Of a stretch of DNA of 64,000 bases, positions 55,471 to 64,000 are shown piece by piece. A model generated the notes under the pieces. That model saw only the letters and a program-made list of their open reading frames with translations. It did not search any database and was not told the origin of the DNA. Position numbers and translations under genes: made by a program. Numbering within the stretch: position 1 is the stretch's first letter; each line of letters starts with the position of its first letter. The stretch lies in contig NZ_KN234748.1 of the NCBI RefSeq assembly GCF_000764025.1, positions 1-64,000 on the forward strand, in the 5' to 3' direction. Source of the stretch: Pseudohaliea rubra DSM 19751 (GTDB lineage: Bacteria > Pseudomonadota > Gammaproteobacteria > Pseudomonadales > Halieaceae).

Positions 55471-56655
55471 CTAACGGTTGCGACCCAGACGCTCGTGGGC
55501 ATTTACCCATTCGTTCTGCCGCGTTTCCTTGTCAACGCGGGTAGCGGCGCCCAGTGACAGTTCCCCGGCCACCACGAGGCCGGCGGCAAGCTCCGCCAGC
55601 TTGAGGGCTTTGCCTTTGCCATGGCAGCCCATGATCTCGAGGCACTCCCGTTGGGTGGGCAGGTTGGTGCCGCCGCCGTAGGTGGCCACAATCAGCGCGG
55701 GCAGGGTGACTGAGAAAAAATAGTCACCCTCCCGGGTGACCCGGTTATAGGTCGTGCACTGGTTGGACTCGCCGATATTGGCGATATCCTGGCCGGTCGC
55801 CAGGTACAGGGCTGCCAGGCCGTTGGCGGGGTGCGCTGCGTTGTTCGACGAGTGCGTGAGGAAGGAGGCGAGGGTGGTGATGCCCTGGCCGTAGTGCATG
55901 GCTTCCGGCGTGATCCGCAGGTTGCGCTCGAGGACTTCGCGGGGAATGGTGATCTCCGCGGTCACCCGGCGGCCCCGTCCCTTCAGGGAGTTCACCGCGG
56001 AGGTGCGCTTCTCGGTATCGAAATTACCCGAGAGCAGGTAGTTCTTCAGCTTCGGGTACTGTTCGCGGATCCATTCGCAGGCGACGAAGGTAGCCCGGCT
56101 GGTCATATTCTGCCCTGCGGCATCGCCGGTCGAGTAGTCGAAGCGCGTGAATACGAAGTTGTGCGCGTTGTAGTGCTCGATTTCAAGCAGCTTGCCCACG
56201 GAGGTCGTGCTTTCAGCCACGGCACGGATCTCGGGCTCGTGCTCGACCAGCCAAAGCTCGAAATCGCGGGCATCCCGCGCATCGCGGAAGACGAAGCAGG
56301 GTGCCCGCTGCATGGCCTCGCCGATGACCGTGGTGGTGACCCCGCCGGCCTCGCGGATCACCTTCATGCCGCGGTTGTAGCTCGCCAGCATGGTGCCCTC
56401 GACGGTCGCCATGGGCACGTAGAACTCGCCCCGGGCGTGTTCGCCGTTGACCAGCAGGGGGCCGGCGAGGCCGATGGGAACCTGCGCCACCCCGAAGAAG
56501 TTTTCTATGTTCCCGGCCATCTCCGGCGGGTCGAAAGAATAGCGCCGGGTGTGCTCGAGGTGTGCGGGCGTATTGGCCTCGATAAAGGCCTGGCGCTCGG
56601 CGATGATCTCGTCGCTGTAGTCGTTGTCAGCGGAGCGTGGTATGCGTTTGCTCAC
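55471..56655 (-). CDS. Hydroxymethylglutaryl-CoA reductase
   Basis: 394 residues. HMG-CoA signature AQVPIGLAGPLLVNGEHARG and VPMATVEGTMLASYNRG with catalytic Glu86. NADPH segment STGDAAGQNMTSRA; Lys216 in NFDTEKRTSAVN; Asp290 in ATGQDIANIGESNQC; His387 in NAHERLGRNR. All four catalytic positions are present, so it should be active. The pattern (GQDIANIGES, AHxxLGR end) is class I-like, as in archaea. It makes mevalonate from HMG-CoA, yet isoprenoids here should come from the MEP pathway. Transcribed after the VOC gene. Confidence 0.94.
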   Translation of the reverse strand: MSKRIPRSADNDYSDEIIAERQAFIEANTPAHLEHTRRYSFDPPEMAGNIENFFGVAQVPIGLAGPLLVNGEHARGEFYVPMATVEGTMLASYNRGMKVIREAGGVTTTVIGEAMQRAPCFVFRDARDARDFELWLVEHEPEIRAVAESTTSVGKLLEIEHYNAHNFVFTRFDYSTGDAAGQNMTSRATFVACEWIREQYPKLKNYLLSGNFDTEKRTSAVNSLKGRGRRVTAEITIPREVLERNLRITPEAMHYGQGITTLASFLTHSSNNAAHPANGLAALYLATGQDIANIGESNQCTTYNRVTREGDYFFSVTLPALIVATYGGGTNLPTQRECLEIMGCHGKGKALKLAELAAGLVVAGELSLGAATRVDKETRQNEWVNAHERLGRNR

Positions 56656-60290: not shown

Positions 60291-60938
60291 TCACAGCCGG
60301 GCGAGACGGTTGAGGTAGGGCAGATGCTCCCGGCCCACGTCGGCGTTCTCGCCGGTGCCCCCGGGTCGATTGTCTGCGCCGAGAGTGAACAGGCGGTAAT
60401 CGCGCTGCGTGCGCCCGCCGAGCCCCACCTCGAAGCGGTAGCTGTTACCCCAGGGATCCCGGGGCAGCGCCGGCAGGTAAGCCGCCGCCGGTGGGACAAG
60501 TTCCTGCAGACCCTGAAGGGGCACGTCGCCGGTCTCCGTTATGTGCGCCTGCACGGCGGCCTCCAGGGCACGCAAGTCTGCGTGGATCTGACCGAGGGTG
60601 CCGCTGCCGCCCTGCCAGGGTGGCATGCCCAGCTCCTTTTCCAGTGCTGTCGCCGGCTTATCGGTGCAGAACAGCGCCAGCTGTTCCGCCGTGGGTCGCC
60701 GGTAGCTTTTACCCCCGCTGTAGATGAAATCGTGCGTTTCGACGCGGAAGCCCTGAAGGTCTGTGGCCGTGTAGCGCCCGCAGATGACCTCCCCGGGAAA
60801 CCGGTGCAGGGCACTGAAGCTGGTGCCGTAGGGCGACGGCAACTCGGCGATGATCGCGTCCCGGGCGTCCCGCTCGAGGGAAGCGCAGCCTGCCAGCAGA
60901 GTGGCGGCCAGGGTCAGCGGGGCGATAGGTCGGAGCAT
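60291..60938 (-). CDS. Lipoprotein with GspG-like (major pseudopilin) C-terminal domain
   Basis: 215 residues. Lipobox LAATLLAGCAS (Cys about 18). The C-terminal half matches the type II secretion GspG periplasmic domain: IHADLRALEAAVQAHITETGDVP, GLQELVPPAAAYLPALPRDPWGNSYRFEV and the calcium-loop-like FTLGADNRPGGTGENADV. The N-terminal prepilin helix and GFTLxE methylation site of GspG are absent, replaced by lipidation. Function unknown; no other secretion genes are nearby. Confidence 0.85.
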   Translation of the reverse strand: MLRPIAPLTLAATLLAGCASLERDARDAIIAELPSPYGTSFSALHRFPGEVICGRYTATDLQGFRVETHDFIYSGGKSYRRPTAEQLALFCTDKPATALEKELGMPPWQGGSGTLGQIHADLRALEAAVQAHITETGDVPLQGLQELVPPAAAYLPALPRDPWGNSYRFEVGLGGRTQRDYRLFTLGADNRPGGTGENADVGREHLPYLNRLARL

Positions 60939-61103: not shown

Positions 61104-61949
61104 ATGGCGCCGCCAAGCCTGCCTTCACTGCCGCCGCTGGCCGTGGTACTCCTCGCCGGCCTGTCGCTGCCGGCACGCGCGCAGCTTCCGCTGAGCATCG
61201 AGGCGCTGCTGGTACAGGACCACCGGCTCAGTGCCACGGTGATCGCCGGCCGCAGCAGTCATCGCGAGCCGGTGCTGGCCCGGGGCCCTGCGGGCGCCTC
61301 GCTTGCCTGGCGCGAGTTCACCGTCGACCAGAGCGGCTTCGGCCTGCGCTATGGCGTGTCACCGCGGCTTGAGCTGAATGCCCGCTACGAGCACAACAGC
61401 CTGCACTGGACCCTGGATGGGGGTAGCGCGGGCCGGGACAGCGGTGCGCGTGTCGTCGCCGGCGCCAACTGGCTCGCGCTCCGGGGCAGCGCCGGTTCGC
61501 TGCTCCTCGATGTGCGTCTCGATGCGGCGGCGCGTACCCTCGGCAGCCTGGATGGCTGGCAGGCCGCGGCCGGGGGCAGCCTCGGCGCAACCTGGTACCG
61601 GCCGCTCGATCCGGTGGTGCTTGCCGTTGCCGCGCGCTATCGCGAGGTACGCAGCCGGCGGACCCCCCTCGGCACGCTGCAGCCCGCACCGGCGACCACC
61701 GTTGATGCGTCGGTAAATTTTGCCCTGAATCAACAGGTAACGCTGCTTGGCGGTGTCGCGCTGGTGCACCAGGATGAGGGCGGCACGCCGCTCCCCCGGG
61801 CGTCGGGCGGCAGCCTGCGTGCCAGCCTGATGACGGGGCTGGCCTATCAACCGGTGGCTCCGGCCACGCTGTTCCTTCGTGCCCGCCTGCCGGTGGGCGC
61901 CAGTGAGGGCGGGGGCGGTATTACCGCCGAATTGCTTTACGAGTTTTGA
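61104..61949 (+). CDS. Outer-membrane beta-barrel protein of the C39 peptidase locus
   Basis: 281 residues, ATG with GGGAGAG upstream. Signal peptide ends near LPARA/QLP. The mature protein shows alternating polar/hydrophobic strands (FGLRYGVSPRLELNARYEH, ASVNFALNQQVTLLGGVALVHQ, ASLMTGLAYQPVAPATLFLRARLPVG) and ends ITAELLYEF with the terminal Phe of barrels. About 12 strands are expected. In Fap-type loci a barrel (FapF) exports the fibril protein; a similar export role is inferred. First gene of a four-gene unit. Confidence 0.75.
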   Translation: MAPPSLPSLPPLAVVLLAGLSLPARAQLPLSIEALLVQDHRLSATVIAGRSSHREPVLARGPAGASLAWREFTVDQSGFGLRYGVSPRLELNARYEHNSLHWTLDGGSAGRDSGARVVAGANWLALRGSAGSLLLDVRLDAAARTLGSLDGWQAAAGGSLGATWYRPLDPVVLAVAARYREVRSRRTPLGTLQPAPATTVDASVNFALNQQVTLLGGVALVHQDEGGTPLPRASGGSLRASLMTGLAYQPVAPATLFLRARLPVGASEGGGGITAELLYEF

Positions 61950-61999
61950 TGAGGGTGGAAACCGGTGCTGTGGCGCCGTTACACAAGGAGGTGTTGACC

Positions 62000-62302
62000 A
62001 TGAAAAAACTGAAGAGCCTGCTCCTGGCAGGTATGTTTGCTACGCTGGCAGCGGGCCCTGGACAGGCAGCTGCCGGCCCGGACCCGGTAGCGGTCGCGTT
62101 CGGCGGTGTGAGTCCGCAACTCGAGCGGATGCCGGACAGCGAGCTGGACGGCTATCGCGGGCGTCTGGCGCCGATGCTGGCACTGCCGCTGACCATCGTC
62201 GCTGCGGACCTCGCCCTGATCGGCGCGTTCTGGGGCGTTTATGTGCCGATGTATGGCGGCGGCGCCTGCCTGAGCTGCAGCAAAAGCCCCGATCTGCACT
62301 GA
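62000..62302 (+). CDS. Small secreted peptide precursor with C-terminal CxxC
   Basis: 100 residues from the ATG behind AAGGAGG; an ATG at 61946 overlapping the barrel stop is less likely. Signal peptide MKKLKSLLLAGMFATLAAGPGQAAA. Then GVSPQLERMPDSELDGYRGR (36-55), which looks like a leader or recognition motif, a hydrophobic segment (56-84) and a Cys pair at 90 and 93 (ACLSCSKSPDLH). The CxxC end recalls Fap fibril proteins, and the leader-like motif recalls bacteriocin precursors. Proposed C39 substrate; no family recognised. Confidence 0.75.
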   Translation: MKKLKSLLLAGMFATLAAGPGQAAAGPDPVAVAFGGVSPQLERMPDSELDGYRGRLAPMLALPLTIVAADLALIGAFWGVYVPMYGGGACLSCSKSPDLH

Positions 62303-62306
62303 CCGT

Positions 62307-62333
62307 GGGCCCGCGGCGTTCTGCCGCGGGCCC
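62307..62333 (+). terminator. Strong hairpin after the peptide gene (attenuator)
   Basis: GGGCCCGCGGC and GCCGCGGGCCC form an 11-bp stem with a 5-base loop, 5 bases past the stop. There is no T-run. It probably stabilises the peptide mRNA and limits expression of the downstream membrane protein and peptidase, a common arrangement for abundant secreted peptides. Confidence 0.65.
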
Positions 62334-62365
62334 CATCAAGCTACTGAGCGGGAGCGTATGGAAAA

Positions 62366-62662
62366 ATGAAAAAATCTCTGCGTGACCTCGCCGCGCGCCG
62401 CGCCCGCGACAACCGTTACCGGGCTCTTTTGAACCGCTATCTGTGGCCCTGGCTGGGCGGTCTTCTTTTACTCGTCACTGGCCTTGCGGTCGCAGCCCTG
62501 CGCATCGCCGGCACGGTGCCGGCGCCGTTGCTGGTGTCACTCTGCGCCGTCTACGTCACGGGCACCGTCCTTGCCTATCAGCGCGCGCAGCACCGGGCCC
62601 GGCGGGAAGTTGCCAGCGAGAACGATCTCGATGCCTACGAGCCGCCGGAGGACCTGCTCTGA
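62366..62662 (+). CDS. Two-helix membrane protein of the C39 locus
   Basis: 98 residues. A basic N-terminus (MKKSLRDLAARRARDNRYRALLNRY) precedes two hydrophobic helices (LWPWLGGLLLLVTGLAVAAL and PAPLLVSLCAVYVTGTVLAY) and a charged acidic tail. No family recognised. A 3-codon reading frame (ATG GAA AAA TGA, 62358-62369) overlaps its start codon and carries the better-spaced SD, suggesting translational coupling. Topology suggests an inner-membrane accessory. Confidence 0.7.
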   Translation: MKKSLRDLAARRARDNRYRALLNRYLWPWLGGLLLLVTGLAVAALRIAGTVPAPLLVSLCAVYVTGTVLAYQRAQHRARREVASENDLDAYEPPEDLL

Positions 62663-63264
62663 GCGCGCGAAGGGCAATCCCGCCAGTACTACTGTCCCTG
62701 CTGGCGTTCGCGCCGGCATCAGCGCCGGCCTTCGAGCACTGGCAGGCCTTGCGCGACAAGGGGCTGATCAAGCAGCAGCGCGATTACAGCTGCGGCCTGG
62801 CTGCGCTGGCGACGGTGTTGACCCACTACTTTCTCACGCCGACTTCAGAGGAGGCTCTTCTCGAAGCACTGGCTTCCAACGGGGAGCGCGAGGCGCGGTG
62901 GATCGAAGAGGGGGTGTCGCTGGCGGCCCTGGCGCGTCTGGCGCGGGATCGCGGTTTCGCCGCGGCTGGTGTTGCCGTGGCACCGGGCGCACTTGATCGC
63001 CTGGGAGTGCCCGCCATTGCCTATCTCGAGCTGGGCGAGGATGCGCACTTTACCGTGCTGCGCGGCGTTGCCGCCGAAGCAGTGGAATTGGCGGACCCGT
63101 CCTGGGGAAATACCCGCATGGTGCGCGCGACCTTCGAAGCCGCTTTCCTGCGCGAGGACGGCCGCGGCCGCCTGCTCGTGCTCGCGGGAACACCGGGCAA
63201 ACCGGTGGCTGCCGATTATTTCGGGCTCCGGCGGCCGTTGCCACTGTTGCGTCCGCCCCGCTAG
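62659..63264 (+). CDS. Periplasmic C39-family cysteine peptidase (FapD-like)
   Basis: 201 residues. The only plausible start is CTG at 62659, overlapping the previous stop (CTGA) and 8-9 bases after GGAGG; no ATG, GTG or TTG lies near. A signal peptide (ARRAIPPVLLSLLAFAPASAPA) follows. Catalytic residues are visible: QQRDYSCGLAALATVL (Cys45, oxyanion Gln), His130 in EDAHFTVLRG and Asp147 in ELADPSWG. It lacks the ABC-transporter domains of double-glycine exporters, like FapD. It probably trims the locus peptide in the periplasm. Confidence 0.85.
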   Translation: MSARRAIPPVLLSLLAFAPASAPAFEHWQALRDKGLIKQQRDYSCGLAALATVLTHYFLTPTSEEALLEALASNGEREARWIEEGVSLAALARLARDRGFAAAGVAVAPGALDRLGVPAIAYLELGEDAHFTVLRGVAAEAVELADPSWGNTRMVRATFEAAFLREDGRGRLLVLAGTPGKPVAADYFGLRRPLPLLRPPR

Positions 63265-63312: not shown

Positions 63313-64000
63313 CTAAAGCTCGCAGAGCGTCAGGCCGAGGGCTTCGCGGAGGCCTGCGGTGGCATCGCGCTGCGCGGTGCCGGTGATCACGGCAGTGCTG
63401 GCGCGCTCCGGTACCAGGTATTCACTCGCGACGCGCACGAGGTCGTCATGGCTGATTGCCAGGACCTGCTGTCGGAAGGCCATGCGGCGCTCGTGGTTGC
63501 GCCCGAAGCGGCGGTTGTGGAAATCCTGCCGCGCTTCCCCGGCGGGGGAGCCGGGTTTATCGAAGCTGGCGATTACCCCGAGGACAGCCTCCTCAAGCGC
63601 CGTCGGGTCCGGGGCTCGTTCGAGGAGCCAGCGTATGGAGGCGTCGAAATCATCCAGGGTTTCCTCGAGTCGCGGGTCCCGGTAAGAAAAGAAGCGGAAG
63701 GCTGCAATGCTCGAGTCCTGCGATGCGCCGCCGCCGTAGGCGCCGCCCTGCTCGCGAATCGCCCGGTGCAGGAAGCCGTTGCGAAGGTAGGCTGCCAGCA
63801 CAGTGAGGGCCGCGGCATCCGGGTGGCCGACGGGTACCGTCGGGTAGGCCCGGGCGCAGAAATTCACCTGCGTATTGGTGAGCCAGCACTCGCCCCGGCG
63901 CTCCTGCACCGCTGCAAGGGCAAGGCCGCTGCCGCCGTCGGCCGACAGCTGCGCCGCCAGCGTTCGCGCTGCAGCGAGCAGCTCCGCCCGGGTACCCGGC
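63313..64000 (-). CDS. M16-family zinc metallopeptidase (PreP-like), C-terminal part
   Basis: 229 residues visible; the frame runs off the right edge. FLHRAIREQGGAYGGGAS is the C-terminal M16C signature, with DPRLEETLDDFDASIRWLLE and ALEEAVLGVIASFDKPGSPAGEARQDFHNRR. This inactive half of PreP/pitrilysin-like enzymes closes over the substrate chamber; the HxxEH active site is beyond the window. Convergent with the C39 gene, 48 bases apart, so co-transcription is excluded. Confidence 0.88.
   Translation of the reverse strand, partial: PGTRAELLAAARTLAAQLSADGGSGLALAAVQERRGECWLTNTQVNFCARAYPTVPVGHPDAAALTVLAAYLRNGFLHRAIREQGGAYGGGASQDSSIAAFRFFSYRDPRLEETLDDFDASIRWLLERAPDPTALEEAVLGVIASFDKPGSPAGEARQDFHNRRFGRNHERRMAFRQQVLAISHDDLVRVASEYLVPERASTAVITGTAQRDATAGLREALGLTLCEL

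Follow-up and report, generated by a model that had tools for sequence, protein, structure and literature searches.

A four-gene unit conserved in Halieaceae predicted to mature a small envelope peptide by Sec export and a stand-alone C39 peptidase

Genes and features of the unit

Toward the end of the window, by which we mean the whole 64,000-nucleotide stretch of DNA that was analyzed, four open reading frames (ORFs) were confirmed on the plus strand, encoding a barrel, a peptide, a two-helix protein, and a C39 peptidase. The compact same-strand unit described in an earlier note on this DNA was therefore present, and its gene order and peptide proved to be conserved across Halieaceae. The unit, its sequence features, and its conserved neighbors are as follows.

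60291-60938, minus strand: lipoprotein-like protein carrying the pseudopilin G domain of type II secretion systems (PF08334), a neighbor conserved in many Halieaceae
61104-61949, plus strand: FapF-like outer-membrane beta-barrel of 281 aa without a coiled coil, assigned from fold and profile matches
62000-62302, plus strand, ATG start: 100-aa precursor with Sec signal peptide, spacer with an AFGG block, double-glycine-type leader, hydrophobic helix, and CxxC tail
62129-62164, plus strand: leader motif MPDSELDGYRGR, precursor residues 44-55, with conserved Gly and spacing and a predicted C39 cut nearby
62165-62299, plus strand: predicted mature peptide of 45 residues, LAPMLALPLTIVAADLALIGAFWGVYVPMYGGGACLSCSKSPDLH, the most conserved part of the precursor
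62307-62333, plus strand: perfect 11-bp inverted repeat, GC-rich, just after the peptide stop codon
62366-62662, plus strand: two-helix inner-membrane protein of 98 aa, whose gene is kept between those for peptide and C39 in four-gene loci
62659-63264, plus strand: stand-alone, Sec-exported C39 peptidase (PF03412; Cys45/His130/Asp146)
63313-63999, minus strand: PreP-type M16 peptidase, a conserved neighbor on the opposite strand

When compared with Pfam and NCBIfam, the peptide, barrel, and two-helix protein gave no match above any curated cut-off. Elsewhere in the window, we note an HMG-CoA reductase gene at 55474-56655 on the minus strand (PF00368, 376 bits), an enzyme uncommon among gammaproteobacteria.

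The barrel has a signal peptide ending in ARA before Q27. Its AlphaFold2 model contains about 12 strands (pLDDT 80.5), and the best fold matches in the PDB were FapF structures 5o65/5o67 (E 5e-11, TM 0.68), bearing out the initial assignment as an outer-membrane barrel. Alignment to FapF homologues with hhalign gave 98.5% over 245 columns, and the barrel sequence matched FapF in the PDB weakly (E 0.3). The N-terminal coiled coil of FapF is missing; the start of the 281-aa protein aligns with FapF from residue 106 onward, and the sole helix ahead of the barrel in the model spans residues 32-35. Assignment as a TonB receptor (E 0.05) was dropped in favor of FapF.

The C39 domain scored 66.8 bits against PF03412 (cut-off 22). 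Cys45 and His130 had been correctly named as catalytic residues, and the Asp, given as 147, is residue 146. No ATG, GTG, or TTG lies at the proper place to start this gene. Judged from the sequence around it, the start is most likely CTG at 62659, coupled to the two-helix stop codon, which it overlaps, with GGAGGA six bases upstream. Against the FapD model, the peptidase reached 63.6 bits, below the equivalog cut-off of 330. In a C39 tree, the Fap and Fil peptidases formed two clades (each 100/98), and the window peptidase fell outside the supported clade (100/97) that holds both, as did a group from a class-level relative (G103). Owing to long branches, the tree does not settle monophyly of the Halieaceae C39 group. 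The closest solved C39 relatives were 7n87, 6mpz, 4ry2, and 8hf4. PA2778/PA2779 may be an analogous C39 pair, for which a literature search gave no support.

A double-glycine-type leader behind a Sec signal peptide

The sequence ahead of the peptide ATG is AAGGAGGTG. The ELDGYRGR stretch, described earlier as leader-like, is part of a double-glycine-type C39 leader directly behind the Sec signal peptide. Across the family, L or M occupies position -12, often E or A position -8, L or M position -7, and G position -2, the leader Gly being invariant in all 35 different peptides. This L/E/L-M/G spacing is the canonical double-glycine leader consensus of C39 substrates. The window peptide had a leader score of 18.3, compared to a family median of 20.3. 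Whereas cytoplasmic C39 substrates carry G, A, or S at -1, the residue here is not strictly so: the window peptide has Arg and thus departs from the double-glycine rule, other members have R, K, E, G, or another residue, and in much of a barrel-less genus (see below) the site is literally RGG, with Gly at -1. We predict from the motif that the peptidase would cut after GR (residues 54-55) or after the leader Gly.

Because residues other than Gly and Ala also occur at -1, we considered whether the motif could instead be a conserved part of the mature protein with a function of its own, with the C39 protein serving as a non-cleaving chaperone, as inactive C39-like domains of some type 1 secretion systems do (PMC5557850). 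This seems improbable. The catalytic Cys, His, and Asp are conserved in the C39 proteins; in FapD, which is periplasmic, the catalytic Cys is required, and its change to Ala abolishes secretion (PMC5557850). Moreover, among the relatives described below, similar leaders give way to unrelated sequence exactly at the motif.

The predicted mature part is the better conserved portion, with a mean major-residue frequency of 0.69 versus 0.38 upstream of it and with invariant Asp, Gly, and Tyr residues. A hydrophobic helix comes first, then YVPxY and, usually, GGGxCxxC; a low-confidence structure model (pLDDT 59.9) places the helix at precursor residues 57-78. The C-terminal CxxC recorded earlier is real in the window and absent in two other loci (L018 and L060) and in the barrel-less genus.

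An inverted repeat as good as that at 62307-62333 occurred in 0 of 100 shuffles, and most of the other four-gene loci also have a hairpin after the peptide gene, of differing sequence and in some cases with a T run. The hairpin is likely mRNA-stabilizing or attenuating, which suggests that substrate would be made in excess over the peptidase.

Conservation across Halieaceae

Relatives of the peptide are encoded in 62 of 140 Halieaceae genomes, so the peptide is conserved well outside the strain, a point on which the earlier note had made its proposal depend. Profile searches of the class and order gave nearly no matches beyond Halieaceae. A genome-contig scan, for which a narrower alignment was used as the ten-row peptide alignment was too diverse, yielded as named carriers Haliea salexigens, H. 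alexandrii, Kineobactrum sediminis, strain HTCC2080, and Luminiphilus metagenome-assembled genomes (MAGs), all Halieaceae; the same kind of scan with a single peptide sequence as query gave no matches. The apparent absence of the peptide from a same-genus genome (G001) is uninformative because the barrel of that genome sits at a contig end. That gene order and peptide are kept across a bacterial family places the unit beyond chance.

The C39 gene adjoins the peptide gene in every checked family locus whose contig extends far enough, the single exception, L058, being cut by a contig end. In one MAG (L056/L190, G433), the C39 frame is seemingly split over two frames, through a frameshift or a sequencing error. 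Barrel and two-helix genes were found in the Haliea, Kineobactrum, and window types. In a Luminiphilus-type genus (g13), both are mostly absent, while peptide and C39 are mostly kept; no barrel relative was found anywhere in ten g13 genomes searched, and one member of the genus (G509) retains a diverged barrel. Conserved co-occurrence, as sought at the outset, therefore holds for the C39 gene in all checkable loci and fails for the barrel in most of g13. Such barrel-less loci had been named in advance as counting against the system, an objection that is borne out in part, and they show that export through a barrel is not essential to the role of the peptide. Two g13 loci (L019 and L020) have a fatty-acid desaturase-like gene immediately ahead of the peptide gene and in the same orientation.

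Except for the Haliea and Kineobactrum types, most of the family has the unit in a single chromosomal slot, flanked by a CitMHS-type transporter on one side and the PreP-type M16 peptidase on the other, and there is one copy per genome. This single slot points to mainly vertical inheritance. The PreP-type M16 family degrades small peptides, and a link between this neighbor and the removed leader is conceivable.

These data bear on the suggestion, raised from the sequence at first, that the locus encodes a bacteriocin. A Sec-dependent class II-type bacteriocin would have its leader removed by the C39 peptidase and be released as a membrane-active peptide by the barrel, with the two-helix protein providing immunity. 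A double-glycine leader, a short hydrophobic cargo, and an adjacent small membrane protein all suit that arrangement, and a leader-bearing protein at another C39 locus (L125) gave a weak match to the class IIb lactobin/cerein model, and one family peptide gave a weaker one still. Bacteriocins, however, are usually patchy and variable, whereas this unit keeps a fixed slot in most of the family and one copy per genome, with the mature region its most conserved part, and g13 mostly retains peptide and C39 while losing the barrel and often the two-helix gene. The fixed position and the strongly conserved mature part weaken the bacteriocin option to an unlikely one and speak for a function in the envelope of the producer itself and against a weapon.

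The same leader beside other C39 genes

As the peptide profile was nearly blank outside Halieaceae, the leader was traced via C39. A position matrix trained on the Halieaceae peptides alone was used to score Sec-like ORFs from 52 further C39 loci; the signal-peptide filter behind this ORF set was crude and missed even the window peptide. A score of at least 10 was reached by 38 of 216 ORFs near C39 and by 4 of 204 ORFs taken as controls from these loci (p 2e-8); the four controls that reached it themselves resemble possible substrates on the other strand. Counting unique near-C39 ORFs, 36 of 214 matched the motif, compared to 2 after reversal and 1.7 after shuffling of the sequences. Most loci (38 of 52) held a protein scoring at least 8; the other 14 had no match at that score, and some of these show visible SAG/TAG-type motifs.

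The class-level relative G103 carries, over six loci (L071, L073, L126, L127, L128, and L129), at least seven stand-alone C39 genes, most of them near a barrel and a precursor. Its precursors, of 82-352 aa, combine a similar leader with unrelated cargo, as if cargo had been swapped behind a fixed export leader. For six of them, the first 54-64 residues are 44-86% identical and the cargo is 13-39% identical over 60 residues, with the sequence switching at the motif. Each of the six adjoins its own C39 gene, and most also adjoin a barrel.

Further short cargoes behind the leader were found in G329, L125, L126, and L122. In the L122 precursor (2535-2822), which adjoins a FapF-like barrel, the site is a literal GG, and the mature peptide is predicted to have 24 residues, ACYYLMYIAGRYYQISLPNSYCS. 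That of L125 (6132-6518) is a Sec-exported, glycine-rich small protein whose leader region scored 16.8 bits against the class IIb lactobin/cerein model, below its cut-off of 21.5. FilA-type proteins (DUF6160) carry the motif as MDDAALSGVTGQ.

FapE carries the leader

A genuine Pseudomonas fap locus (L164) encodes FapD at 401.5 bits (cut-off 330) and, beside it, FapE at 348 bits (cut-off 250). At residues 29-40 of this FapE, the matrix found the motif LKDQELAQLRGK; the stretch around the candidate FapD site is LKDQELAQLRGKYVMPG. Among eight FapE homologues, the first Leu, the Arg-Gly, and a later Phe-Gly are invariant. When the peptide family was compared with FapE using hhalign, the alignment covered the motif only (18 columns, probability 27%, E 7e-4). 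The window peptide thus has the FapE-type leader behind its signal peptide and does not share the remainder of FapE.

The target of FapD has been stated to be unclear (PMC5557850), and periplasmic C39 peptidases are described as uncharacterized in that study and in PMC6173800. The leader common to peptide and FapE suggests what FapD may cut. The N-terminal ~70 residues of FapE yielded no observed peptides (PMC5557850), which fits a cut near residue 40 without proving one.

Leader logic common to FapE and to cargoes beside FapD-like peptidases marks the unit, as far as sequence can tell, as one variant of a wider Sec-plus-C39 class. Taken further, a general and undescribed maturation route may operate in Gammaproteobacteria, in which a Sec signal is followed by a portable leader that a dedicated periplasmic C39 peptidase cuts, often beside a FapF-type pore. 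This route would serve FapE, FilA-type proteins, small hydrophobic peptides, and the swapped-cargo family, and the FapD substrate would be FapE, with the cut directly behind RG[KR] at about residue 40. We lean slightly toward this joint proposal. A sequence rule derived from the window peptide then names a likely substrate and cut site in Fap, Fil, and many unnamed loci.

Proposed two-step maturation

We favor, at a probability of roughly 0.7, a reading in which the product of the unit is a small envelope peptide matured in two steps, Sec export being followed by a periplasmic C39 cut at the leader. To judge from its signal peptide, the precursor would first be exported by Sec. The motif, its conservation, and its co-occurrence with C39 genes suggest that the periplasmic stand-alone peptidase would then recognize the leader and cut near R-G-R, freeing a peptide of ~45 residues with the hydrophobic helix at its very start. 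Where a barrel is present, the peptide would most likely be passed to or through the FapF-like pore, and the CxxC would form a disulfide; in the barrel-less genus, it would stay in the envelope. After maturation, membrane insertion or export via the barrel reads best as the endpoint. For the two-helix protein, the probable task is to hold the hydrophobic peptide in the inner membrane or to hand it over there. The original description of the locus as an undescribed secreted-peptide system appears right, and the unit reveals a conserved, unstudied envelope peptide of a marine bacterial family.

Comparison with known systems

Like Pseudomonas Fap (fapABCDEF), the unit combines a periplasmic C39 peptidase, a 12-strand FapF-type pore, and a secreted substrate, and the leader motif recurs in FapE, again following the signal peptide. 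It differs in that no FapA, FapB, FapC, or amyloid repeats were found and in having an extra two-helix gene. Because its barrel has no coiled coil and its C39 peptidase falls outside the FapD clade, the unit is not a Fap operon, yet it works like part of Fap. The parallel drawn earlier holds to this extent, with a FapF-homologous barrel, a FapD-related peptidase, and a FapE leader.

The same three likenesses, with a C-terminal CxxC as in FapC (PMC6173800), are what a minimal functional-amyloid or surface-fiber locus would show, the peptide being a fiber subunit secreted by a reduced Fap machine. No FapB or FapC with amyloid repeats is encoded in the unit, however, and the genome gave no match to FapC of L164 in a search run without a positive control. 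The mature part has neither repeats nor an Asn/Gln-rich core and is a predicted hydrophobic helix (at low confidence), and CxxC is missing in some members. The minimal-amyloid option of the earlier note is thus unsupported, and we regard it as very improbable beside two-step maturation of an envelope peptide.

Homologues of fapD and fapF are co-localized in five further phyla, likewise pairing a C39 peptidase with a FapF-type barrel without a full fap operon; the sections of PMC6173800 on which this rests describe neither a small substrate nor a common leader, in which the present unit differs.

The putative pilus system Fil also places a stand-alone C39 peptidase (FilB) beside a Sec-exported protein, FilA/DUF6160, with the matching motif MDDAALSGVTGQ; its cargo belongs to another family, and its C39 forms a clade of its own. 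Finally, the peptidase-containing ABC transporters PCAT1 and ComA, which handle double-glycine peptides, share the C39 fold and the leader spacing. No transporter is fused to the window C39, and as both precursor and peptidase carry Sec signals, cleavage here, unlike that by PCAT1 and ComA, would be periplasmic.
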